From: Chthoniobacter flavus Ellin428
GTDB lineage: Bacteria; Verrucomicrobiota; Verrucomicrobiia; Chthoniobacterales; Chthoniobacteraceae
Length of the DNA stretch: 64,000 nt
Direction of reading: 5' to 3'
NCBI RefSeq assembly: GCF_000173075.1
Contig: NZ_ABVL01000001.1
Span: 124,001-188,000, forward strand
Under the pieces are notes generated by a model. The model did not search any database. It saw only the letters and a program-made list of their open reading frames with translations, and was not told where the DNA came from. Made by a program: the position numbers and the translations under genes. This document shows positions 40,161-51,157 of this stretch, in pieces; within the stretch, counting starts at the first letter, position 1, and every line of letters starts with the position of its first letter.

Positions 40161-40195
40161 CACCGGCACCCGGGAAACTGGGTGCCGGTTTTTTT
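40161..40195 (+). terminator. Rho-independent terminator
   Basis: ACCGGCACCC (40162-40171) pairs with GGGTGCCGGT (40180-40189) around a short loop and is followed by T7 (40189-40195), 23 bases after the small exported protein's stop codon. Confidence 0.92.
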
Positions 40196-40312: not shown

Positions 40313-40328
40313 TGCTAAATTTTTAGCA
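40313..40328. promoter_or_regulatory. Probable BlaI operator 1
   Basis: TGCTAAATTTTTAGCA is a near-perfect dyad, 43 bases centre-to-centre from a second copy that overlaps the blaI start codon. Two spaced dyads upstream of a BlaI-family gene fit autoregulation by a repressor dimer. Confidence 0.75.
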
Positions 40329-40355
40329 CATTTTCCTTGGCCGCGCGGAATCGTG

Positions 40356-40371
40356 TGCTAAAAATTTAGCA
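40356..40371. promoter_or_regulatory. Probable BlaI operator 2
   Basis: TGCTAAAAATTTAGCA is the reverse complement of operator 1. Its last base is the A of the blaI ATG, so a bound repressor would also cover the ribosome site. Confidence 0.75.
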
Positions 40372-40760
40372 TGCCTGATCGATCCGCACATTCTCTCTCC
40401 CGGCGGGAACGGCAAATCATGGACATCATCTACGCCCGTGGTGAAGCGGCGGCGGCCGAAGTCCATGAAGCGCTGCCCGATGCCCCCAGCTACTCCGCCG
40501 TCCGCGCGCTCCTGCGCATCCTCGAGGAAAAGGGCCATCTCAAGCACCGCGAGGACGGCGCCCGCTATATCTACCTGCCCACCGAACCGCGCGGCAAAGC
40601 CAGTCGCTCGGCGTTGCAACGGGTGGTGAAAACTTTCTTCGAAGGCTCGCTCTCGAGTGCGGTCGCCGCGCTCGTCGATGCCGAAGGCGGCAAGCTCTCC
40701 GCGGAGGAGCTCGAACGCATCGAGGCCATCATCCGCGCCGTGAAAAACAAGTCCAAATAA
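40371..40760 (+). CDS. blaI: BlaI/MecI-family repressor
   Basis: 129-residue winged-helix repressor: SLSRRERQIMDIIYARGEAA, YSAVRALLRILEEKGHLKH (DNA-recognition region) and YIYLPT wing, then a C-terminal dimer helix with VVKTFFEGSLSSAVAAL, where relatives are cut by their M56 partner. It is followed eight bases later by an M56 gene and preceded by two dyads, so it very probably represses this locus and is inactivated by proteolysis. Confidence 0.93.
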   Translation: MPDRSAHSLSRRERQIMDIIYARGEAAAAEVHEALPDAPSYSAVRALLRILEEKGHLKHREDGARYIYLPTEPRGKASRSALQRVVKTFFEGSLSSAVAALVDAEGGKLSAEELERIEAIIRAVKNKSK

Positions 40761-40768
40761 CCCGCGCC

Positions 40769-43700
40769 ATGAACACCGAATCCGTCCTCCCCATCCTCGG
40801 CGAACTCCTCGCCAAGAGCGCCCTCATCACCCTCGCCGCGGCTCTGCTCGCTCGCGCCTGGCGCGGAACCACCGCCGCCCAGCGACACCTCGTGTGGTTG
40901 GTTGCGCTGGCCACGGTCATGATGCTGCCGTTGACTCGACTGGTCGCACCGTTCTGGCGAATCCCGCTCAACCCGTCGAAACCCGCGCTCATTGTCAAAG
41001 CGAAACCGTCGGTCATTCCGATGGCCCCGGTCGAAATGGCCTCGCCGATGGAACTCCCGATCGCGCCTCCGCCCACGCATGCTCCGCTCGATTGGCGGAA
41101 AATCCTCCTCGGCACCTGGTTGAGCGGCACCACGATTTTGCTCGGCTATCGTTTGTTCGGGAGCTGGCGTCTGCATCGACTGATGCGTCGCAGCACTCCG
41201 CTCGATGATCCGCGCATTCGCCTCCTGCTCAGCCGCGCGCTCAGCGAACTCCAGCTCCGGCGCCGCCCCGAGATTCGCCTCTCCGAGGAATGCCGCGTGC
41301 CCGTCACCTGGGGCAGCCTGCGTCCGGTGATGCTCCTGCCCAGGTCCGCGCTGCAATGGAGCGACACGTGGATCCTCGCCGCGCTTCGTCACGAGGCCGC
41401 GCACATCGCCCGCTACGACTATCTCACGCGCTGGTTTGCCCAGGTGGCCTGCGCGCTCTATTGGCCAAACCCGCTCGTCTGGATGCTCGCCCGTTCCTTG
41501 CGCGTGGCGCAGGAACTCGCTGCGGATGACCTCGTGCTCCGCGCCGGGACACCGGCCGACGAATACGCCTCACAACTGGTCAACGCCGCTCGCGAGATCC
41601 TCACGCACGGTTTCTTCGTCCGCCAGGCGGTGGCCATGGCCTGCCCCTCCACGCTCGAGGATCGCGTTCGTGCCATCGTCGATGGCTATCGCGATCGCCG
41701 CCCGCTCAGCCGTCTCGCGGTCGCCTGCGGCTCATTCGCCATCGCCGGCGTACTCGGTCTCAGCACGGCTGCGCAATTGCGCAGCGACGAGCAAAAGCCG
41801 ACGCCCGAAACCAAAGATACGGAAACCAAATCTCTCCATCCGGCCAGCCCGCAAATCGAGATCGAGGCAAAGTTCGTCGAGATCCACTCGCCTGTGGCGA
41901 AGAGCTCGGACGTGCAAGCCGGAGACGCCGAGGGGCAGGCCGATCGGCCGACGATTTTCACGGACCCGCAGTTTCAATTGATCATCCGCTCGCTGAACCA
42001 AAAGAAGGGAGTGGATATCTTATCCTCTCCGCGGGTGACGACACGCGCGAACCAGCGTGCCGTGGTGGAAGCGGTCCGCGAATTCCGCACCCCAACGGAA
42101 TGGGAATGGCGAAAGGAAAGCGGGACCTGGAAGCCAACGAAATTCGAAACGAAGAATCTCGGCATTTCGCTGGAAGTGGAACCGCGCCTTGGCAGAGACG
42201 GCACGCTCGAAGTGCACGCCATTTCCAGCGTGGTCGAGTTTCTCGGGTTCCTGGATCTGGATACCGGCAAAACGATTCTCGCGTCCAGGACAGCGGCGGA
42301 TGGCAACGTGGAGGTGCCGCCAGTGGTGCCCGGCCATCGATCGAAGGGAATCTACTCGGAGCGCCGGAAAGAAAGCACCGTTAACCTGAAATCCGGCGAG
42401 ACCTTCCAAATCGCGGATCTGCCGGAAACCGCGGATACCAAAGCCCTCGAAAAGCACGCATCGCGAAAACGGATCATGGTTTTCATTTCTCCGCGACTCA
42501 TCGCACCGGCATCGGCGGCTGCCGGAACTGGCTCGGATGCTACGGGGTCGCCGGGGGCGCAGGGGGAATTGGTCCTCCATGGCACGTTGGACCTCAACGG
42601 CCCCAAGCAGATGGTGGCCGTCAGTGGAGCCTTCAAGGTCGTTCCGGAATCGGACGAGGCGTTCCTGCGCCGCATCCATCTCGAGATCACCGACCAGCAG
42701 CCCACACCCGAGGAATTGCGCGCGTTTCAGGATGCTTCGCAGCCCTCTGCTCAAAAGCGTCAGGCAGCGATCGAAAAGCTGACGGCGCGCGACGGGGACG
42801 CTGAGTTCTTACGCCATGTTTATCTCGTCATCATGGGCCGGCAGCCGCTGCCGGAGGAACTGCGCACCTTCCTCGATGATCCCCAGCCTTCTGCCGCCAA
42901 ACGCCAGGCGATGGTCGAAAAGCTGACCGCTGCCAACGCAACGAACGCGGCGCAGAGCGAAACTCACCCGGGCGCATCGACGAATGCCGGCCCCAGCGCC
43001 GGGCCCGCCGGCACGCAGAGTCCCATGCTGGCCAAGGCGACGAAGATCATCATCCCGAAGATCGAATTCCGCGAAGCCACGCTCAACGAGGCGCTCGAAT
43101 TCCTGCGGAAAAAGGCCATGGAATTCGATCCGGACAGACCGGGTGTGAAATCAGCGTCAAACCCCGGCGTCGAGTCGAATGATATGAGGATCACGTTGTC
43201 CCTCTCGAATGTCCCGCTCATTGAGGCCCTGAAGTATGTTACGGACCTCGCCGCAGTGGGACTCACGGTGCTGCCGGATGCGTTGGTGATTCAGCCGACG
43301 AATGGCGACGCCCGGGGGGCCGGCGGGCCTCCGCCACCCATTCCCGGACTCGATGCGGCTCCAACACCACCCGCGGTGTCAGAATCGGCGAAGCCCGAGG
43401 CACTGGCCGAAAGTCCCACGTTGAATAAGGCCACGAAGATCATCCTTCCGGAGATCGAGTTCCGCGATGCCACGCTCCGCGAGGCGGTTGATTTTCTTCG
43501 CATGAAAGCCAGGGAACTCGATCCGGATAAAACCGGCATCAATATCGTGGTGAAGCCCGGCGCAGGGGCCGACGTGCACATCACGCTATCCCTGACGAAT
43601 ATACCGTTGATCGAAGCACTGCATTATGTCGCGGGTTTGGCGGGCCTGCAGATGAAGGCCGAGAAGAATGCGGTGGTTCTCGGGCCGCCGGCCCCTGCGA

Positions 43701-44008
43701 GCGCGGCGATGCCGAAAGTCAAAACGGCCTCCAAAGAGGAAGGGCCGGTGGAAATCGAATCTGACAAAACCCACATGGAAAACGGAGTCGCAATCGCCGA
43801 GGGAAACGCCCGGTTGGCCTTCGGCAAATATCATGTGGCAGCGGATACCATTCTTTACCACCCCGATACGCGCTCGGCGGATTTCATCGGTCATGTCGCG
43901 GTGAAAGACGGAGTCAACCTGGTTCAGGGCGAAGAGATCAACGTCACTTTCGAGACGGGAAGTATCAAGGTCCGGGGTCCCCACCGCACGAACATCCCTT
44001 CGCATTAG
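40769..44008 (+). CDS. BlaR1-like M56 protease fused to secretin-, STN- and OstA-like domains
   Basis: 1079 residues. Residues 1-335 are a BlaR1/MecR1-type M56 membrane protease: four helices, zinc motif H208-E-A-A-H212 and third ligand near E249 (QELAADD). The penicillin-sensing domain of BlaR1 is absent. Instead come a secretin-like domain at about 362-580 (QIEIEAKFVEIHSP, GVDILSSPRVTTRANQRA, ISLEVEPRLGRDGTLEVHA, VNLKSGETFQIADLPE), two DUF1549-like helical repeats (about 628-720), two STN-like modules (about 755-843 and 884-972, each with ATKII.P.IEFR.ATL.EA), and a C-terminal OstA/LptA-like domain (about 993-1070, GVAIAEGNARLAFGKYHVAA). It probably senses an envelope state and cleaves BlaI; this is inference. 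Confidence 0.85.
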   Translation: MNTESVLPILGELLAKSALITLAAALLARAWRGTTAAQRHLVWLVALATVMMLPLTRLVAPFWRIPLNPSKPALIVKAKPSVIPMAPVEMASPMELPIAPPPTHAPLDWRKILLGTWLSGTTILLGYRLFGSWRLHRLMRRSTPLDDPRIRLLLSRALSELQLRRRPEIRLSEECRVPVTWGSLRPVMLLPRSALQWSDTWILAALRHEAAHIARYDYLTRWFAQVACALYWPNPLVWMLARSLRVAQELAADDLVLRAGTPADEYASQLVNAAREILTHGFFVRQAVAMACPSTLEDRVRAIVDGYRDRRPLSRLAVACGSFAIAGVLGLSTAAQLRSDEQKPTPETKDTETKSLHPASPQIEIEAKFVEIHSPVAKSSDVQAGDAEGQADRPTIFTDPQFQLIIRSLNQKKGVDILSSPRVTTRANQRAVVEAVREFRTPTEWEWRKESGTWKPTKFETKNLGISLEVEPRLGRDGTLEVHAISSVVEFLGFLDLDTGKTILASRTAADGNVEVPPVVPGHRSKGIYSERRKESTVNLKSGETFQIADLPETADTKALEKHASRKRIMVFISPRLIAPASAAAGTGSDATGSPGAQGELVLHGTLDLNGPKQMVAVSGAFKVVPESDEAFLRRIHLEITDQQPTPEELRAFQDASQPSAQKRQAAIEKLTARDGDAEFLRHVYLVIMGRQPLPEELRTFLDDPQPSAAKRQAMVEKLTAANATNAAQSETHPGASTNAGPSAGPAGTQSPMLAKATKIIIPKIEFREATLNEALEFLRKKAMEFDPDRPGVKSASNPGVESNDMRITLSLSNVPLIEALKYVTDLAAVGLTVLPDALVIQPTNGDARGAGGPPPPIPGLDAAPTPPAVSESAKPEALAESPTLNKATKIILPEIEFRDATLREAVDFLRMKARELDPDKTGINIVVKPGAGADVHITLSLTNIPLIEALHYVAGLAGLQMKAEKNAVVLGPPAPASAAMPKVKTASKEEGPVEIESDKTHMENGVAIAEGNARLAFGKYHVAADTILYHPDTRSADFIGHVAVKDGVNLVQGEEINVTFETGSIKVRGPHRTNIPSH

Positions 44009-44253
44009 CCTGCCTCGGGGAAGGCCGGAAAAGGCCGCCGGAACGGAAGCTCTCACGAATCCATGGGTGGAATAGCTTTTCTTCGGGTTGGGCTCGGGAA
44101 TGTAACCGTCGCAATGCGCTATTAACCTCAGGTGCCTGCTATGTGTGCGGCGCTCTCGGCTTTGCAAAGCGGGGTGGTAAGCGGTAGACGGAACAGCGGC
44201 ATTTGACGCTTCGCTGTGGACCTCGCAGCGCCTTAATCTAGCCTTCTCCCCAG

Positions 44254-45471
44254 ATGAAAGGTATTTTTCCTTTGTTGCCGGCGATGGCATGGTCCCTCCT
44301 CGTAGCATCGCCCTGTCCCCAAGCGTTGAGTGTCGGTGCTGATAGAATTCCTGCTGCTGCCCGAGCCGTCTCATTTACCGGGCCAACGGCGGACGCGGCG
44401 TCCCGGATCATTATTCCCCGGCTCGACTTCCGGGAGGCGACGCTTGGAGAGGCCCTCGATTTCCTTCGGAAGAAGGCTGAGGAACTCTCTCCCAACAGAA
44501 GTCTCTTCAATTTGGTTCTAAATTTGCCTCCCGATGCCAGACCACCGCGGCTCACTCTGGAATTGAAAGACGTCTCTCTCCTTGACGCAGCGCGATCGAT
44601 TGCCGCTTTGGTGAATCTGGAGCTGACCTTGGAACAAAATGCATTCGTCTTTGGAGTCGCTCCACCCAAGGTCAAAATGGCCAAACCGAGTGCGGCATGG
44701 AAGAAAGCGGAGGCATTGAGCATTCCGCAGTTGGAATTGCGCCAGGCGACTACGTTAGAAGCAGTGGAATTTCTTCAGAAGAAATCCGCTGAACTCGATC
44801 CCGGCAAGAGGGGCGTGAACCTCCTCCTCCAGCCCGGTCCCGAAAACTTTGCCAGGATGTCCATGTCCTTGAGAGGGATCTCGCTGGCCGAGGCGCTGCG
44901 TTATGTGGCCGGGGCGGCAGAGATGGAATTGATGGCTCAGCCGGATAGGATCGTTCTTCAGCCTCGAAAGGAGAGGGCGGTAAAACCGCCGAAGATGGTG
45001 GCAGCTTCGGTTCGCCGGGAAGGGAGCGTCATTCTGGCCGAGGACCACGCGGTATTGAATGGCGAAGGGTTAACCATTGTTGCCGACGAAATCCGCTACG
45101 ACACCGCGACCGCGCGAGCCCAGGCGTCCGGGCATGTCGAAATCTGGCACGGGGCGGAGTTGACGCAGGGCGACGATCTTCAGTTGGGACTGGGGCCTCG
45201 GGGCCAGTTTGTCGTCGAGGGCGCTTTGCGCTCGACCGTGGTGTGGCCCTTTTCAAATTTGGAAGGCGCCTCGGAACCCGAACGGACCGATATCATGACG
45301 ACCTTCTTGCGAGGTCTCACCCTGAGAGGCGAAGGTGATGTCCAAGGTGCGGCGTGGCAATTCGAGCGAGCGCTGGAAAAGCTCGACGGCGTCAAAATGT
45401 CCGACGCCTCTGATCAACGGATTCTCAAAGAGTTTCGCGCGATCATTATGGATAAACAGAAGGGCCTTTGA
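44254..45471 (+). CDS. Exported STN-OstA protein, paralogue of the M56 C-terminus
   Basis: 405 residues with an N-terminal signal-like segment (MKGIFPLLPAMAWSLLVASP). Two STN-like modules follow (about 45-130 and 145-230, IIIPRLDFREATLGEALDFL and LSIPQLELRQATTLEAVEFL) and then an OstA-like beta stretch (AVLNGEGLTIVADEIRYDTA). It matches the order of the last 330 residues of the preceding protein but lacks the protease, so it looks like a free periplasmic version produced by duplication. It starts 245 bases after the M56 gene; I see no terminator between them. Confidence 0.78.
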   Translation: MKGIFPLLPAMAWSLLVASPCPQALSVGADRIPAAARAVSFTGPTADAASRIIIPRLDFREATLGEALDFLRKKAEELSPNRSLFNLVLNLPPDARPPRLTLELKDVSLLDAARSIAALVNLELTLEQNAFVFGVAPPKVKMAKPSAAWKKAEALSIPQLELRQATTLEAVEFLQKKSAELDPGKRGVNLLLQPGPENFARMSMSLRGISLAEALRYVAGAAEMELMAQPDRIVLQPRKERAVKPPKMVAASVRREGSVILAEDHAVLNGEGLTIVADEIRYDTATARAQASGHVEIWHGAELTQGDDLQLGLGPRGQFVVEGALRSTVVWPFSNLEGASEPERTDIMTTFLRGLTLRGEGDVQGAAWQFERALEKLDGVKMSDASDQRILKEFRAIIMDKQKGL

Positions 45472-45568: not shown

Positions 45569-47341
45569 ATGTCGTCCAACGTGCCCGCCGCCCCCCCTGT
45601 TGCCTTTACGCTTCCGCGTCCGGTGCCGCAGCAAAAGATTCGTTCCCCCAAGAAAAACATTCCGCAGACCCCCATCCAGCGGCAGTACATCCTGGAGCAG
45701 GTCCGTGCGTATGTAGCTGAGCAAAAGCCAGTTCCGCCGTTGCCGGCGGATGATATCAAGGTCCATGCGGACAAGCTGGTAGCGCAATTCCAGTGCGACC
45801 CGATTTACCGCGATTACATCGGCGTCCTGCTGAACAACGAGATGTGGCGGGAGCAGCTCGCCGCCGTCCCTTTCGAGCGTCGTCTGCTGCTTTTACCGAA
45901 ATGCCTCCGTGTGGAGGACCGTTGCCCGGCGCCTTTTGATGAATTTGGCCTCCTTTGCAAGCAGTGCGGGCTGTGCACCATTCAGGATTTGCAGTCCGAG
46001 GCCGAGCGGCTCGGCTACGCAGTGCTGGTGGCCGAGGGCAGTGCGATCGTCATGTCGCTCATCCAGACGGGCAAGATTGAGGCCATCGTTGGCGTGAGCT
46101 GCCTCAGCGTGCTGGAGCGCGCGTTTCCTTATATGGAAGCGGCGGCCATCCCTGGCGTCGCTGTCCCGCTGCTGCAGGACGATTGCATCGATACCAATGT
46201 CGACCTTGATTGGGTGTGGGATTACATCCACCTGACCAGCGACGACCAGACGCGCCGTCTCGACCTGAGCCAGCTCCGCGACGACATCGATTTCTGGTTC
46301 ACCCCGCTCAATCTCGACTCCATCATGGGTCCCGCCGAGGGCGAGACGGAGAAGATCTCGCGCCAGTGGCTCGGCCGCGCCGGCAAACGCTGGCGGCCGT
46401 TCCTCACCGTGGCCGCGTATCAGGCGCTGCGGACCACGCCCGGCGCGCCGATTCCCGATGACCTGCGCAAGGTCGCCGTGGCGGTCGAATGCTTCCACAA
46501 GGCCTCGCTCATCCACGATGATATCGAGGACAACGACGCGCAGCGTTACGGCGAGCCGACGCTACATGAGGAACACGGCATCGCCGTGGCGCTCAATGTC
46601 GGCGACCTGCTCATCGGCGAAGGCTACCGCCTGCTCGCAGCGTGCAACGCCAGTCCCGAGCAAAAGGTCGCCATGCTGCGCATCGCCGCCGAGGGTCAGC
46701 GCGAACTCTGCCGCGGCCAGGGCGCCGAACTCGTCTGGGCCCGCCAGCCGCAGCCGCTCACCTCGACCGAGGTACTCGATATTTTCCGCAAAAAGACCGC
46801 GCCCGCCTTCGGCGTGGCGCTGCAGCTCGGTACCGTCTACGCGGGCCAGCTCGAGGAACACGAGGAAGTGCTCCAGGCCTACAGCGAAGCGCTGGGTATC
46901 GCCTATCAGATCCGTGACGACCTCAGCGATCTCGGCGCCAGCGGCGAGACGAACGACATCGCCGGTCTGCGCCCCAGCCTCCTCCTCGCCGTCGCCTTCG
47001 AGCGCGCGAATCTCGAGGCCAGCGGCGCCGACAAATCGCTCGCCGAAAAGCGCGCCGAACAGAAGCTTGCCCTCGAAGCCCACTGGCGCCGCCTTTCCAC
47101 GGCCACCCCGGCGGAAATCGAAGCGCTCTACTTCGAGCTCCGCGCCGACGAGCGCTGCCGTACCCTGCTCGAGAGCTATAAGGAAGAAGCCATCCGCTCC
47201 CTGCGCGACGTCGAGAACGCCAACCTGAAAGGCCTGCTCCGCCGCGTCATTGGCAAGATCTTCAACGACGCGGAAATCAAAGGCTGGTGCAAGGAATTCG
47301 AGCAAAAGAACCTCGGTGGCGTGGCCCTGGCCTCGGCGTAA
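45569..47341 (+). CDS. DUF116-polyprenyl synthase fusion
   Basis: 590 residues. Residues about 90-240 are a DUF116 domain with a cysteine-rich core (C112, C119, C130, C133, C136 in CLRVEDRCPAP and LLCKQCGLC) and GYAVLVAEGSAIV, IEAIVGVSCL; these cysteines could bind a metal or Fe-S cluster. From about 255 on it is a trans-prenyl diphosphate synthase: GKRWRPFL, first Asp-rich motif D317-D-I-E-D, second DDLSD at 450-454. The synthase extends allylic diphosphates with IPP. The ATG at 45569 was chosen as the first that covers the DUF116 part without overlapping the preceding gene. Confidence 0.85.
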   Translation: MSSNVPAAPPVAFTLPRPVPQQKIRSPKKNIPQTPIQRQYILEQVRAYVAEQKPVPPLPADDIKVHADKLVAQFQCDPIYRDYIGVLLNNEMWREQLAAVPFERRLLLLPKCLRVEDRCPAPFDEFGLLCKQCGLCTIQDLQSEAERLGYAVLVAEGSAIVMSLIQTGKIEAIVGVSCLSVLERAFPYMEAAAIPGVAVPLLQDDCIDTNVDLDWVWDYIHLTSDDQTRRLDLSQLRDDIDFWFTPLNLDSIMGPAEGETEKISRQWLGRAGKRWRPFLTVAAYQALRTTPGAPIPDDLRKVAVAVECFHKASLIHDDIEDNDAQRYGEPTLHEEHGIAVALNVGDLLIGEGYRLLAACNASPEQKVAMLRIAAEGQRELCRGQGAELVWARQPQPLTSTEVLDIFRKKTAPAFGVALQLGTVYAGQLEEHEEVLQAYSEALGIAYQIRDDLSDLGASGETNDIAGLRPSLLLAVAFERANLEASGADKSLAEKRAEQKLALEAHWRRLSTATPAEIEALYFELRADERCRTLLESYKEEAIRSLRDVENANLKGLLRRVIGKIFNDAEIKGWCKEFEQKNLGGVALASA

Positions 47342-47395: not shown

Positions 47396-47593
47396 ATGTC
47401 CGCCGCCGAAATCATCGAGCAGATCAAGGCCCTGCCGCCGGAAGAGCAGCGCGAAGTGTCCCGCTTTGTGCATACGCACGTAGACGCCCAACCACCGCGC
47501 ACCGCTCAAAGAAACGCTTCCGAACCGATCGAATCGATCGCCTCGCGTATTTTTGATCGTTACGACCCACTCTTTCGGAAACTGGCTGAGTGA
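47396..47593 (+). CDS. Putative antitoxin of the Doc pair
   Basis: 65 residues: an amphipathic N-terminus (MSAAEIIEQIKALPPEEQRE), a linker, and a C-terminal SIASRIFDRYDPLFRKLAE segment expected to contact the toxin. It precedes the Doc-like gene and its stop overlaps that start (GTGA), the usual antitoxin-toxin coupling. Assignment rests on position and size, not on a recognised fold. Confidence 0.65.
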   Translation: MSAAEIIEQIKALPPEEQREVSRFVHTHVDAQPPRTAQRNASEPIESIASRIFDRYDPLFRKLAE

Positions 47594-47991
47594 GCGAGCC
47601 GATTTTTCTTTCGTTTGCGGAAGTGCAAACGTTGCACGTGTTGTCCCTGCAACGGTATGGCGGCCTGCACGGTATTCGCGATCAAGGTGGAGTCGAATCC
47701 GCGGTCGAGCAGCCCAAGAACACATTCTACTACGGTGGCGGCGATCTTTTCGACGTCGCCGCGGCGTACGCATTTCACATTGCCCAAGCGCAGGCCTTTC
47801 TGGATGGAAACAAACGCACCGGCCTGGCTGCGGCCCTTGCTTTCCTCGAGCGCAACAACTTGGTGGCGCTCTACGAGTGGGAGGAGTTGTATCGAGTCAT
47901 GATCGAAATCGCCGAAAGGCGATGTGGCAAGGAAGCGCTGGCCGAAATTTTCCGTGCGGCATTTCCTACCGGGAGCGGCCTTCTGGAATAG
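47590..47991 (+). CDS. Doc-like (Fic-fold) toxin
   Basis: 133 residues of the death-on-curing family, which phosphorylates EF-Tu in phage P1 Doc. It shows YGGLHGIRDQGGVESAV near the start and the Fic core FLDGNKRTGLAAAL. The expected HxFxDxNKR motif reads QAFLDGNKR: the catalytic histidine position holds Gln, with another His eight residues before. It may be inactive, use a different residue, or belong to a variant subfamily. It begins at a GTG overlapping the antitoxin stop by four bases. Confidence 0.85.
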   Translation: MSEPIFLSFAEVQTLHVLSLQRYGGLHGIRDQGGVESAVEQPKNTFYYGGGDLFDVAAAYAFHIAQAQAFLDGNKRTGLAAALAFLERNNLVALYEWEELYRVMIEIAERRCGKEALAEIFRAAFPTGSGLLE

Positions 47992-48018: not shown

Positions 48019-48918
48019 GTGAGCCTCCGTCTGCAAATGCTGCAAATCGCGCGCGTCGCGCCGAAGGTGCTCGGAGAATCGGCCGATTTGGTGCGGCCGT
48101 TTCTGGCGAAACAATTTTCACCGGAGGGGGGCGCGATGGATCGCGGGGGAAAGCCCGATCTCTATTACACGATCTTTGCTCTCGCCGGTCTGCAGGCCAT
48201 GCAGGCGGAAGAGCAAATCGACCATCGGCAATCTGCCATCTGCCATTGGCTGCGCAGCTTCGGCGATGGCGCCGATCTCGATTTCGTCCACCTCAGTGCG
48301 CTGGCCCGTTGCTGGGCGGCGATCGGTCTCGACCACGCGCCCCACGGCCTCGCCGATGCCGTGCTCGCCCGCATTGAAAAGCATCGCTCCCGCGATGGTG
48401 GTTACGAAGCGGACATCAGCGCTGAACACGGCAACGCCTACGGCTGTTTCGTCGCCCTTGGCGCGTATCAAGATCTGGGCCGCGAATTGCCCGACCCGTT
48501 GCGCATGGTGCAGTGCCTCAAGTTCCTCGAAACGCCGGACGGCGCCTGGGCCAACGCACGCGGTCTAAAAATCGGCTCCACAAACGCCACCGCCGCCGCG
48601 GTCACGTTGCTCCATCAACTCCGCATCCCGGTAAACCAAAGCGTCGGCGACTGGCTGCTCGCACAACTCCACCCCGAAGGTGGTTTCCTCGCCATGCCGA
48701 ACGCGCCGATGCCCGACCTCCTCTCCACGGCCACCACCCTGCACGCGCTCTCCTGTCTCGAACGCGAAGTGCCACCGGCCGTCCGCGAACGCTGCCTCGA
48801 TTTCATCGACACCCTCTGGGACGCCGAAGGCGGCTTCCACGGCCACTGGGCCGACGACCATCTCGACGCCGAATACACCTTCTACGGCCTGCTGGCGCTC
48901 GGGCATCTCAGCGTCTAA
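48019..48918 (+). CDS. Prenyltransferase/squalene-oxidase repeat protein
   Basis: 299 residues forming an alpha-alpha toroid of the type in prenyltransferase beta subunits and squalene cyclases: repeated segments such as GGKPDLYYTIFALAGLQAM, SRDGGYEADISAEHGNAYGC, ETPDGAWANARGLKIGSTNA and DAEGGFHGHWADDHLDAEYT. It has no obvious metal-binding or DxDD motif, so it may be a partner or a specialised enzyme. It starts at GTG, 27 bases after the toxin gene, in line with the downstream cyclase. Confidence 0.82.
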   Translation: MSLRLQMLQIARVAPKVLGESADLVRPFLAKQFSPEGGAMDRGGKPDLYYTIFALAGLQAMQAEEQIDHRQSAICHWLRSFGDGADLDFVHLSALARCWAAIGLDHAPHGLADAVLARIEKHRSRDGGYEADISAEHGNAYGCFVALGAYQDLGRELPDPLRMVQCLKFLETPDGAWANARGLKIGSTNATAAAVTLLHQLRIPVNQSVGDWLLAQLHPEGGFLAMPNAPMPDLLSTATTLHALSCLEREVPPAVRERCLDFIDTLWDAEGGFHGHWADDHLDAEYTFYGLLALGHLSV

Positions 48919-48927
48919 GCTGTTGGT

Positions 48928-49341
48928 ATGACCCAGCACATCATCCTCTACGACGGCGATTGTCCGATGTGCGTGTTCCAGATGAAGATGCTGAGCTGGC
49001 TGGATTGGTTTGGCGTGCTCGCGCTGGTGCCGCTCAGTGATCCGCGGGCGCAGGAAGTGGCGCCGCAACTCACGCGCGAGGATTTGCTGGAGGCCATTCA
49101 TTGCGTCACCCCGCAGGGCCGTATTTATCGTGGCGCGCGGGCGATTCGTTTTGTCGGCATGCGGTTGCCGTTGCTCGTGCCGGTGGCGCTGTTTCTGTGG
49201 ATTCCCGGGGTGATTCTCATCGCGGAAATCGTCTACCAGTGGGTGAGCCGGAATCGTCTCCTCCTCAGCCGCATCTTTGGCTGCAAGGACGCCTGCGCCA
49301 TTCTGCCGGCAAAGAAACGCGAACAGGACAAGCTGGCTTAG
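48928..49341 (+). CDS. DCC-family (DUF393) thiol-disulfide protein
   Basis: 137 residues with the signature D9-G-D-C12-P-M-C15, the CxxC redox or ligand pair of DUF393, then a helix (about 68-90: RLPLLVPVALFLWIPGVILI) suggesting membrane association. Genes of this family often accompany quinone or terpenoid enzymes. It lies ten bases after the toroid protein and five before the cyclase, so it is part of one operon. Confidence 0.85.
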   Translation: MTQHIILYDGDCPMCVFQMKMLSWLDWFGVLALVPLSDPRAQEVAPQLTREDLLEAIHCVTPQGRIYRGARAIRFVGMRLPLLVPVALFLWIPGVILIAEIVYQWVSRNRLLLSRIFGCKDACAILPAKKREQDKLA

Positions 49342-49345
49342 TCGT

Positions 49346-51157
49346 TTGGAAACACTTTCCCGCTCCCGGCTCGAAGCGGCGCTGGCCAAGGCCACGCAGG
49401 CGCTCCTCACGGAGCTCAATCCCGCCGGTCATTGGAGCGGTGAACTTTCCAGCAGCGCGCTTTCCACGGCGACAGCGATCGTCGCGCTGGGTGCCGTCGA
49501 TCGGGAGCAGCAGCGCGAGTTGATCGCCGGTGGCATGCGCTGGCTGGCGCAGCATCAGAACGCCGACGGAGGCTGGGGCGACACAGTGAAGAGCCGCAGC
49601 AATATTAGCACGACGGCGCTTTGCTGGGCGGCGGTGAGCACTTCGACGGAGCATGCGGAGAGCGCGGCGAAGGCCGAGGCGTGGCTCACGCGAGCGGCGG
49701 GATCGATGGCGCAACTCGTGCCGGCCATCGAGGCTCGCTACGGCAAAGACCGCACGTTCTCCGTGCCGATCCTCATGCATCTGGCGATCTGTGGTCGGGT
49801 GAGTTGGTCACAAATTCCGGCGCTGCCTTTCGAACTGGCGGCGCTGCCGCATCAGCTTTTCGGTGCATTGCAACTGCCGGTGGTGAGCTACGCACTGCCT
49901 GCGCTCATCGCGATCGGACAGGCCATCCATCACCACGCGCCGCCGACGAATCCGCTCTTGAACGGGCTCCGCAAAAGTGCGCGGGCCCGCACGCTGGAGG
50001 TGCTCGAATCGATCCAGCCACAGAACGGCGGTTTCCTCGAAGCGACGCCGCTGACCAGCTTCGTCACCATGGCGCTCGCTTCCGCGGGTGAGGCCCAACA
50101 TCCTGTCGCTCGTCGCGGGGTGAGTTTTCTACAAGCGAGCGTGCAGCGCGATGGCAGTTGGGCGATCGACACGAACCTCGCCACGTGGGTCACGACACTT
50201 TCGATCAAGGCCCTCGCGCATCAGCCGGGCGCGCTCTCGCCGGAACGCGCTTTGACCCTCCGCGAATGGCTCCTCGGCCAGCAGTACGTCGTGGAGCATC
50301 CTTACACCCACGCCGCGCCCGGCGGTTGGGCCTGGACCGATCTTCCTGGCGGCGTGCCCGACGCGGATGACACGCCCGGGGCGCTCCTCGCGCTGTTGCA
50401 TCTCGGCGTCGTCGATGCGCCCACTCGCCAGGCCGGTCAGATAGGCGTGCGCTGGCTGCTCGACCTGCAAAATCGCGACGGCGGCATTCCCACTTTCTGC
50501 CGCGGCTGGGGCGCACTGCCTTTCGATCGCAGTTCACCCGATCTCACCGCGCACACCCTGCGCGCGTGGACAGCGTGGCTGCCACAGCTCGATGAATCGC
50601 TGAAGCGGCGCACCCTTCGAGCCGTCACGAAAGCGATTCATTTCCTCGCCACCCATCAGCGTACCGACGGCTCGTGGCTGCCGCTGTGGTTTGGCAACGA
50701 ACACGCGCCCGATGATGAAAACCCACTCTACGGCACGGCCAAGGTGGTGATCGCGTTGCGCGAATTATTAAACCGCGATTTCACGCTCCCGAATGGCATG
50801 CTCGAGCGTGCGTTGTGCTGGCTCGTGGAACGACAGGACATCTCCGGCGGCTGGAGCGGTGCAAAGAATGGTCCCGTCTCCGTCGAAGAAACGGCGCTCG
50901 CGGTGGAAGCACTCGCCGGCACCGGGCACGTCAGCGCCACCGATCGCGGCGCGGCGTGGTTGACCGAACAAATCGAAGCCGACACGTGGCGCGAACCTGC
51001 GCCGATCGGTTTCTATTTCGCCAAGCTCTGGTACTACGAACGCCTTTATCCACAGATCTGGACCGTCGGCGCATTGGGGCGAGTCGCGGCATTGCGCGTG
51101 GGTGAGTCAGAAAGCGACACGCCGGCTGGACTTCACCGGGCGACCTCCGAGACCTGA
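49346..51157 (+). CDS. Squalene-hopene-type cyclase
   Basis: 603 residues, in the range of squalene-hopene cyclases. The protonating motif D339-A-D-D342 (GGVPDADDTPGALLAL) and several QW repeats (QNADGGWGD, QRDGSWAID, QRTDGSWLPLWFG, QDISGGWSG) are present. The product may be hopene or another triterpene; a squalene synthase gene is not in the window. The start at TTG 49346 is preferred over an upstream ATG at 49277 because it lies five bases after the DCC stop and avoids reading its sequence in another frame. Confidence 0.87.
   Translation: METLSRSRLEAALAKATQALLTELNPAGHWSGELSSSALSTATAIVALGAVDREQQRELIAGGMRWLAQHQNADGGWGDTVKSRSNISTTALCWAAVSTSTEHAESAAKAEAWLTRAAGSMAQLVPAIEARYGKDRTFSVPILMHLAICGRVSWSQIPALPFELAALPHQLFGALQLPVVSYALPALIAIGQAIHHHAPPTNPLLNGLRKSARARTLEVLESIQPQNGGFLEATPLTSFVTMALASAGEAQHPVARRGVSFLQASVQRDGSWAIDTNLATWVTTLSIKALAHQPGALSPERALTLREWLLGQQYVVEHPYTHAAPGGWAWTDLPGGVPDADDTPGALLALLHLGVVDAPTRQAGQIGVRWLLDLQNRDGGIPTFCRGWGALPFDRSSPDLTAHTLRAWTAWLPQLDESLKRRTLRAVTKAIHFLATHQRTDGSWLPLWFGNEHAPDDENPLYGTAKVVIALRELLNRDFTLPNGMLERALCWLVERQDISGGWSGAKNGPVSVEETALAVEALAGTGHVSATDRGAAWLTEQIEADTWREPAPIGFYFAKLWYYERLYPQIWTVGALGRVAALRVGESESDTPAGLHRATSET

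Follow-up and report, generated by a model that had tools for sequence, protein, structure and literature searches.

A BlaR1-like BlaI/M56 locus with a predicted secretin, STN and OstA receptor half in Chthoniobacter flavus Ellin428

The genome of Chthoniobacter flavus Ellin428, a member of the Verrucomicrobiota, encodes a BlaI-type repressor directly followed by an M56 metalloprotease. The pair lies in a 64,000-nucleotide stretch (RefSeq assembly GCF_000173075.1, contig NZ_ABVL01000001.1, positions 124,001 to 188,000 of the forward strand), referred to here as the window. To our knowledge, BlaR1/MecR1 has hardly been described as anything but a beta-lactam sensor. The protein of the window appears instead to be a BlaR1-like receptor in which envelope-type modules replace that sensor, as a first-pass annotation had proposed from the sequence alone, and profile searches and a structure model support this reading. 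The locus is real, recurrent and, as far as the literature found shows, uncharacterised.

Layout of the locus and its operators

The locus consists of the following features, in window positions:

40162-40189 (+): terminator-like stem-loop and T run, a consensus match only, dividing the locus from the upstream gene
40313-40328 (unstranded): operator dyad 1, TGCTAAATTTTTAGCA, exact; kept in L045/L201 and relatives (L numbers are loci of the comparison set)
40356-40371 (unstranded): operator dyad 2, TGCTAAAAATTTAGCA, exact; its last base is the A of the blaI start codon
40371-40760 (+): blaI, winged-helix repressor, 129 aa (PF03965)
40769-44008 (+): M56 metalloprotease-receptor, 1079 aa (open reading frame, PF05569)
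44254-45471 (+): free STN-STN-OstA protein, predicted to be exported, 405 aa, with an N-terminal hydrophobic segment and a helical C-terminal tail

The blaI product matches the Pfam family PF03965 (Penicillinase_R) at E 1e-27 and the M56 protein matches PF05569 (Peptidase_M56) at E 1.8e-31; each profile has one match across the genome. The two genes are 8 bases apart, and 245 bases separate the M56 gene from the 405 aa frame. No terminator was found on the plus strand between 44009 and 45900, so that the free gene, and even the polyprenyl synthetase fusion gene behind it, may be cotranscribed with blaI-M56.

As the first-pass annotation had noticed, blaI stands under two dyads. They share the form TGCTAAANNTTTAGCA and are spaced 43 bases apart. 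Within the window alone, two hits at 3 mismatches are not rare (13 of 100 shuffles), and the argument for operators therefore rests on the genome-wide count and on conservation. The 7.85 Mb genome holds no other copy at up to one mismatch, while the same pair with the same spacing precedes blaI in relatives. A wider regulon was sought with the 14-base core at one mismatch, which gave two extra genome sites, far fewer than the 60 of a backward control pattern, and hence no evidence for other targets. No beta-lactamase or PBP2a gene lies under the operators, which genome-wide were found at their own operon only. The genome thus holds a single repressor, a single protease and a single operator pair, as far as found, and the only visible output of the operators is the operon itself.

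The M56 protein and its receptor half

The M56 protein is divided into a protease and a long C-terminal receptor half:

40814-41677 (+): M56 domain, residues 16-303, with H208-E-A-A-H212, E249, D253 and R299 intact
41705-41773 (+): last transmembrane segment, residues 313-335, by hydropathy
41837-42523 (+): secretin domain, about residues 357-585, shortened and without the PxxGDIPxxGxLF pore signature
42650-42935 (+): two DUF1549/PSCyt2-like helical repeats, about residues 628-722, of low model confidence, the second placed by eye
43025-43303 (+): STN module 1, about residues 753-845, from neighbour-built profiles, model and fold match
43409-43696 (+): STN module 2, about residues 881-976, from Pfam, profiles, model and fold match
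43706-43975 (+): OstA/LptA-like module, about residues 980-1069, from Pfam/NCBIfam, model and fold match

The HEXXH...ExxxD motif and downstream Arg of the BlaR1/MecR1 sensor-transducers are present, as are the neighbouring BlaI/MecI-type repressor gene and palindromic operators. The gluzincin residues H208/E209/H212, E249, D253 and R299 are invariant or nearly so in relatives, and H208/H212/E249/D253/R299 correspond to H201/H205/E242/D246/R294 of Staphylococcus aureus BlaR1 (PMC9834060). Hydropathy places membrane segments at residues 5-31, 40-63 and 313-335; a further helix near 106-128 is less hydrophobic and was read by eye. From these segments and the analogy with BlaR1, everything C-terminal of residues 313-335 is predicted to be extracytoplasmic.

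Several lines of evidence agree on the receptor half. Pfam recognises the secretin domain (PF00263, E 3.2e-10) and, in two stretches, DUF1549/PSCyt2 (E 2.4e-11) above cut-off, with STN (0.01) and LptD_N/OstA (0.0076) below it. Among NCBIfam models, that of the Amuc_1098 pilus secretin matches at E 1.5e-68 and LptA (TIGR03002) at E 0.0013. An AlphaFold2 model of residues 346-1079 was built on a 24-row alignment of homologues. Its pLDDT is about 90-96 across both STN modules and the greater part of the secretin domain, about 78-87 for OstA, and poor in the DUF1549-like part. Compared with the Protein Data Bank (PDB), the secretin domain resembles secretins (Foldseek E 1.5e-6; VIA Z 12.8). STN module 1 is closest to the FecR-type anti-sigma factor 4m0n (Z 9.9, rmsd 1.7-1.8 over 74 residues) and STN module 2 matches the EscC N0 domain (Z 9.5). 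The OstA module matches LptA (Z 7.9) and LptH (Z 7.6) within a range of 7.2-7.9; a Z under 8 alone could reflect a common arrangement, and here the match agrees with the sequence profiles. The weak STN and OstA profile scores are thus supported because predicted fold and PDB matches concur.

The possibility that this is an ordinary beta-lactam system of the MecR1 kind whose sensor was missed is very remote. The arrangement of BlaI, M56 and dyads is the same, but no transpeptidase was found by Pfam profile (PF00905) or among the listed fold matches, and there is no unassigned stretch big enough for a sensor of ~250 residues with a confident structure. A true BlaR1 is easily recognised in L066 (2394-4883, minus strand; PF00905 E 5e-57), from a related family of the same order, where both kinds coexist.

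The secretin domain is unlikely to form a pore. Only ~20 residues separate it from the last membrane helix, a spacer too short for the periplasm, so that judged from its sequence the domain cannot reach the outer membrane. The PxxGDIPxxGxLF signature is absent from all 29 M56-linked secretin domains; it is present in 29 of 46 other secretin-bearing frames, many of the remainder being fragments, and in nearly all long pilus-type secretins of the same data. One rival explanation draws on the lost signature: near the inner membrane, the receptor half would co-assemble with secretin subunits that are unassembled or in the wrong place, and would report them in a Psp-like manner. Mislocalised secretins are a known inner-membrane stress to which Psp responds (PMC5596341), the secretin and STN parts are nearest to Verrucomicrobial pilus secretins (the Amuc_1098 match above), and a domain that has lost its pore signature could bind without inserting. 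Such secretin quality control is the main rival but is nonetheless unlikely, as M56 proteins with STN and no secretin, or with other domains, are also common and no psp-like output gene lies under the operators.

Recurrence in Verrucomicrobiota and the free STN-STN-OstA gene

M56 genes were gathered from the family and order, from an even phylum sample and from named genomes. M56-secretin, M56-STN and M56-secretin-OstA-STN proteins recur in many genera of Verrucomicrobiota. Relatives include L201 (Chthoniobacteraceae), L203 and L205 (metagenome-assembled genomes of Chthoniobacter flavus), L209 (Opitutae), and L210, L227, L228 and L234 (Prosthecobacter and Verrucomicrobium). Secretin and/or STN modules occur in 53 of 196 distinct M56 proteins, a set in which relatives of the window are over-represented. 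Of the 87 loci in the even phylum sample, about 20 have secretin or STN, whereas a transpeptidase sensor was found in 6 of 71 scanned M56 proteins; the annotation ‘BlaR1/BlaI’ in Verrucomicrobiota therefore rarely means beta-lactam resistance. BlaI adjoins M56 in every locus of the phylum sample and in 41 of 46 family and order loci (contig ends or broken genes account for the others), and paired operators precede blaI in nearly all M56 loci with secretin or STN that were checked. Profile similarity, recurrence and the lack of a transpeptidase fold all bear out the first-pass reading of a replaced sensor. The first-pass annotation had also proposed to ask whether blaI and a free STN-OstA gene co-occur with such proteins: blaI is essentially always adjoining, and a free STN-OstA gene was not found to recur. 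A literature search on M56 with secretin turned up no paper, which is not proof of absence.

Several further architectures were encountered. In L047 (4275-6947, minus strand) and L050 (559-2910, plus strand) a squalene-hopene-cyclase-like alpha/alpha toroid follows M56, and in L047 two STN modules come after it. L042 (3930-9173, plus strand) and L043 (2603-8374, minus strand) encode M56 proteins that measure 1748-1924 aa between stops, contain DUF1549/PSCyt2 segments and have long C-terminal parts without assignment. Tandem M56-STN or M56-secretin genes with one blaI ahead occur in L084 (1726-5180, plus strand) and L128 (1753-5696, plus strand). One M56-secretin-OstA-STN gene of genome G022 is apparently split across the ends of contigs C11 and C252 (L059, 4055-4753; L058, 2700-4229).

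The C-termini behind M56 are highly variable. Transpeptidase, carboxypeptidase-regulatory, HEAT, ankyrin, toroid, ExbD, TonB_C, FecR_C and DUF1349 domains were found, as well as none at all, and secretin and/or STN are very frequent among them. This variability, together with several M56 proteins of 330-360 aa without a receptor half, is what speaks for a reading in which the receptor half, rather than sensing, serves as an exchangeable scaffold or helps dimerisation and the protease senses membrane state through its own loops. Such a role is improbable, since the receptor half is under purifying selection, the STN/secretin class is more clustered on the M56 tree than in shuffles, and in BlaR1 sensing falls to the C-terminal part (PMC9834060). 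In the Prosthecobacter-like clade, to which the figure applies, dN/dS across seven loci is 0.19-0.33 for the receptor half and 0.15-0.23 for the protease. On the tree, the window protein falls in a 13-row clade with support 100 in which 12 members carry secretin and/or STN; the label needs at least 18 changes (repeated gains or losses), an approximate number as the tree was made by FastTree and has many long branches.

Single OstA half-repeats stand between or after the modules in L045/L201, L202 (in these, PF03968 is above cut-off after M56), L058/L205, L227 and L262, the last two from the Verrucomicrobiaceae/Prosthecobacter group. With the LptA/LptH-like fold, they are what speaks for the first-pass idea of a lipid trigger, in which an LPS-like lipid bound by the OstA module would activate the protease and the free protein would be a carrier of the lipid or a competitor for it. 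This version is quite improbable: most M56-linked OstA copies consist of one half-repeat of 40-50 residues, which is little for a lipid groove, most M56 proteins with secretin or STN lack OstA, and the free gene is not conserved.

In the window, the free protein repeats the STN-STN-OstA order behind an N-terminal hydrophobic segment, as first noticed, and its modules were located with profiles from the neighbouring M56 protein:

44359-44673 (+): STN module 1 of the free protein
44689-44988 (+): STN module 2 of the free protein
44983-45243 (+): OstA module of the free protein

The free protein has no Pfam match and matches the NCBIfam Amuc_1098 model at E 1.2e-22; a single-sequence AlphaFold2 model (pLDDT 38) was not used. 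Evidence on a recent local duplication as the origin of the gene points both ways. Its OstA module has as sole clear relative in the compared set its counterpart in the neighbouring M56 protein (28-31%), which ties the two together, but its STN modules are as close to the M56 proteins of L206 and L262 as to the neighbour. A search of 147 genomes of the order gave no full-length relative, which weakens the idea of a decoy and does not favour the free paralogue as a general partner. Beside other M56 genes, the only free genes of the kind are those of L257 (2602-4209, plus strand) and L262 (2769-4274, plus strand). They encode exported STN proteins without OstA, directly upstream of blaI-M56-STN, and are inserted between the gene for glyceraldehyde-3-phosphate dehydrogenase (GAPDH) and blaI in two of seven syntenic Prosthecobacter-like loci. 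Free STN proteins have thus come to stand next to an M56-STN receptor more than once.

The surroundings of these loci were also inspected. In the window, the free gene is followed by a DUF116 (PF01976)-polyprenyl synthetase (PF00348) fusion (45570-47341, plus strand), then, by eye only, by a Doc/Fic-like frame (47590-47991) and prenyltransferase/squalene-hopene-cyclase-like frames (48019-48918 and 49277-51157), a set that resembles an isoprenoid gene group directly downstream of the locus. Neither an extracytoplasmic-function (ECF) sigma factor nor a TonB-dependent transducer was recognised by eye in the neighbouring frames, of which five proteins were profile-scanned, and no lpt gene was noticed among them. 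A conserved downstream target gene did not emerge: an SGNH-type hydrolase was seen in L045 and a MoxR cluster in L051. An RNase-III-like gene of 117 aa at Prosthecobacter-like loci was discarded as a target, as it belongs to the general synteny.

Proposed mechanism and known systems

Because the sensor is replaced by modules of outer-membrane machines and the same swap occurs in many relatives, what these receptors monitor is probably the cell envelope and not penicillin. For the locus itself, the chances are about even that it is a self-regulated operon of the BlaR1 type whose M56 receptor half docks an envelope protein and so controls proteolysis of BlaI. BlaI dimers on both dyads over the blaI start would keep the operon shut. 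The M56 protein would be an inner-membrane zinc protease, its extracytoplasmic half serving to dock proteins by means of a secretin domain that has lost its pore signature, STN domains and an OstA fold. Candidates for the partner are pilus-type secretins, outer-membrane proteins that bear an STN domain, and the exported product of the third gene. Binding or loss of a partner carrying the same kinds of domain would change the receptor dimer, and the changed dimer would let the protease cut BlaI, comparable to the way in which docking of a transducer STN governs FecR, PupR and FoxR. In favour of this proposal stand the intact catalytic residues, the adjoining blaI with its paired operators, the folds of the receptor half, its recurrence in many genera, the missing pore signature, the short spacer behind the last membrane helix and the purifying selection in the Prosthecobacter-like clade.

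A number of observations weigh against this proposal. No ligand was found and no target gene outside the operon, and the third gene is a putative member of the transcript. MecI is cut at N101-F102 and BlaR1/MecR1 cleaves itself at Ser-Phe. The window BlaI aligns with MecI along its length and has A-L at that site; the M56 protein has a VAMA loop in place of Ser-Phe. The type of the M56 loop goes with the type of the BlaI site in 160 of 185 loci, which by itself would speak for the proposal, but this agreement loses significance once kinship is counted, there being 2-3 informative independent pairs, and coevolution of the two was not retained. In a sister genus (g6), M56 proteins of about 330-400 aa accompany blaI without any receptor half, so that signalling by the protease-repressor core alone exists; the short proteins of L048, L054, L056, L057, L060, L061 and L062 nevertheless come with dyads ahead of blaI.

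A broader and more tentative possibility is that a non-antibiotic branch of BlaR1 monitors outer-membrane machines through copied secretin, STN and OstA domains and answers by repressor proteolysis. Such a branch would be commoner in Verrucomicrobiota than its namesake, and some members would have gained a diffusible partner by exporting a duplicate of the receptor half. The BlaR1-type protease-repressor pair has been joined to de-pored secretin, STN and OstA repeatedly, mostly within one phylum. If the proposal is true, direct repressor proteolysis would be a general receptor chassis for which parts of envelope machines were recruited as sensors.

Among known systems, BlaR1/BlaI and MecR1/MecI share with the locus the blaI-M56 pair, paired operators over the blaI start, the gluzincin HEXXH/ExxxD/Arg set, and a membrane helix followed by an extracytoplasmic C-terminal half, here predicted. 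The window protein differs in having secretin-(DUF1549)-STN-STN-OstA where they have the C-terminal penicillin-binding sensor (transpeptidase, SXXK), and its operators are of different sequence with no beta-lactamase or PBP gene under them. Verrucomicrobial PilQ-type secretins of the Amuc_1098 family appear from sequence to be the source of its secretin domain and STN modules. Although the domain is clearly that of PilQ/GspD by profile and fold (Z up to 12.8), module order, the lost pore signature and anchoring close to the inner membrane set it apart. With LptA/LptH the protein shares the OstA fold, here as a single short module with which a receptor ends, an unusual place for it. The Psp response is a possible analogy in what is sensed, with no PspF, PspA or PspBC parts seen at the locus.

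FecR, PupR and FoxR offer the closest parallel for docking. They too are inner-membrane signalling proteins with a C-terminal STN, but the window protein has an M56 protease with BlaI instead of an N-terminal anti-sigma domain, and extra secretin and OstA modules. STN domains are known to interact with one another and with the periplasmic portions of proteins in the inner membrane; in regulators of the FecR, PupR and FoxR type, the STN docks that of a TonB-dependent transducer to control proteolysis of the regulator (PMC7186176; PMC11637429). As STN already acts in signalling both in FecA/FoxA/PupB and at the C-terminus of these regulators, and the best fold match of STN module 1 is itself a FecR-type anti-sigma factor, its use as a sensor is not new, contrary to what had first been supposed. 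PupR has a beta-rich subdomain close to the membrane and, behind it, a C-terminal STN, a plan that the M56 receptor shares with its secretin domain as the beta-rich part. Together, STN docking and this shared plan favour a protein partner of the secretin or STN type over a lipid.

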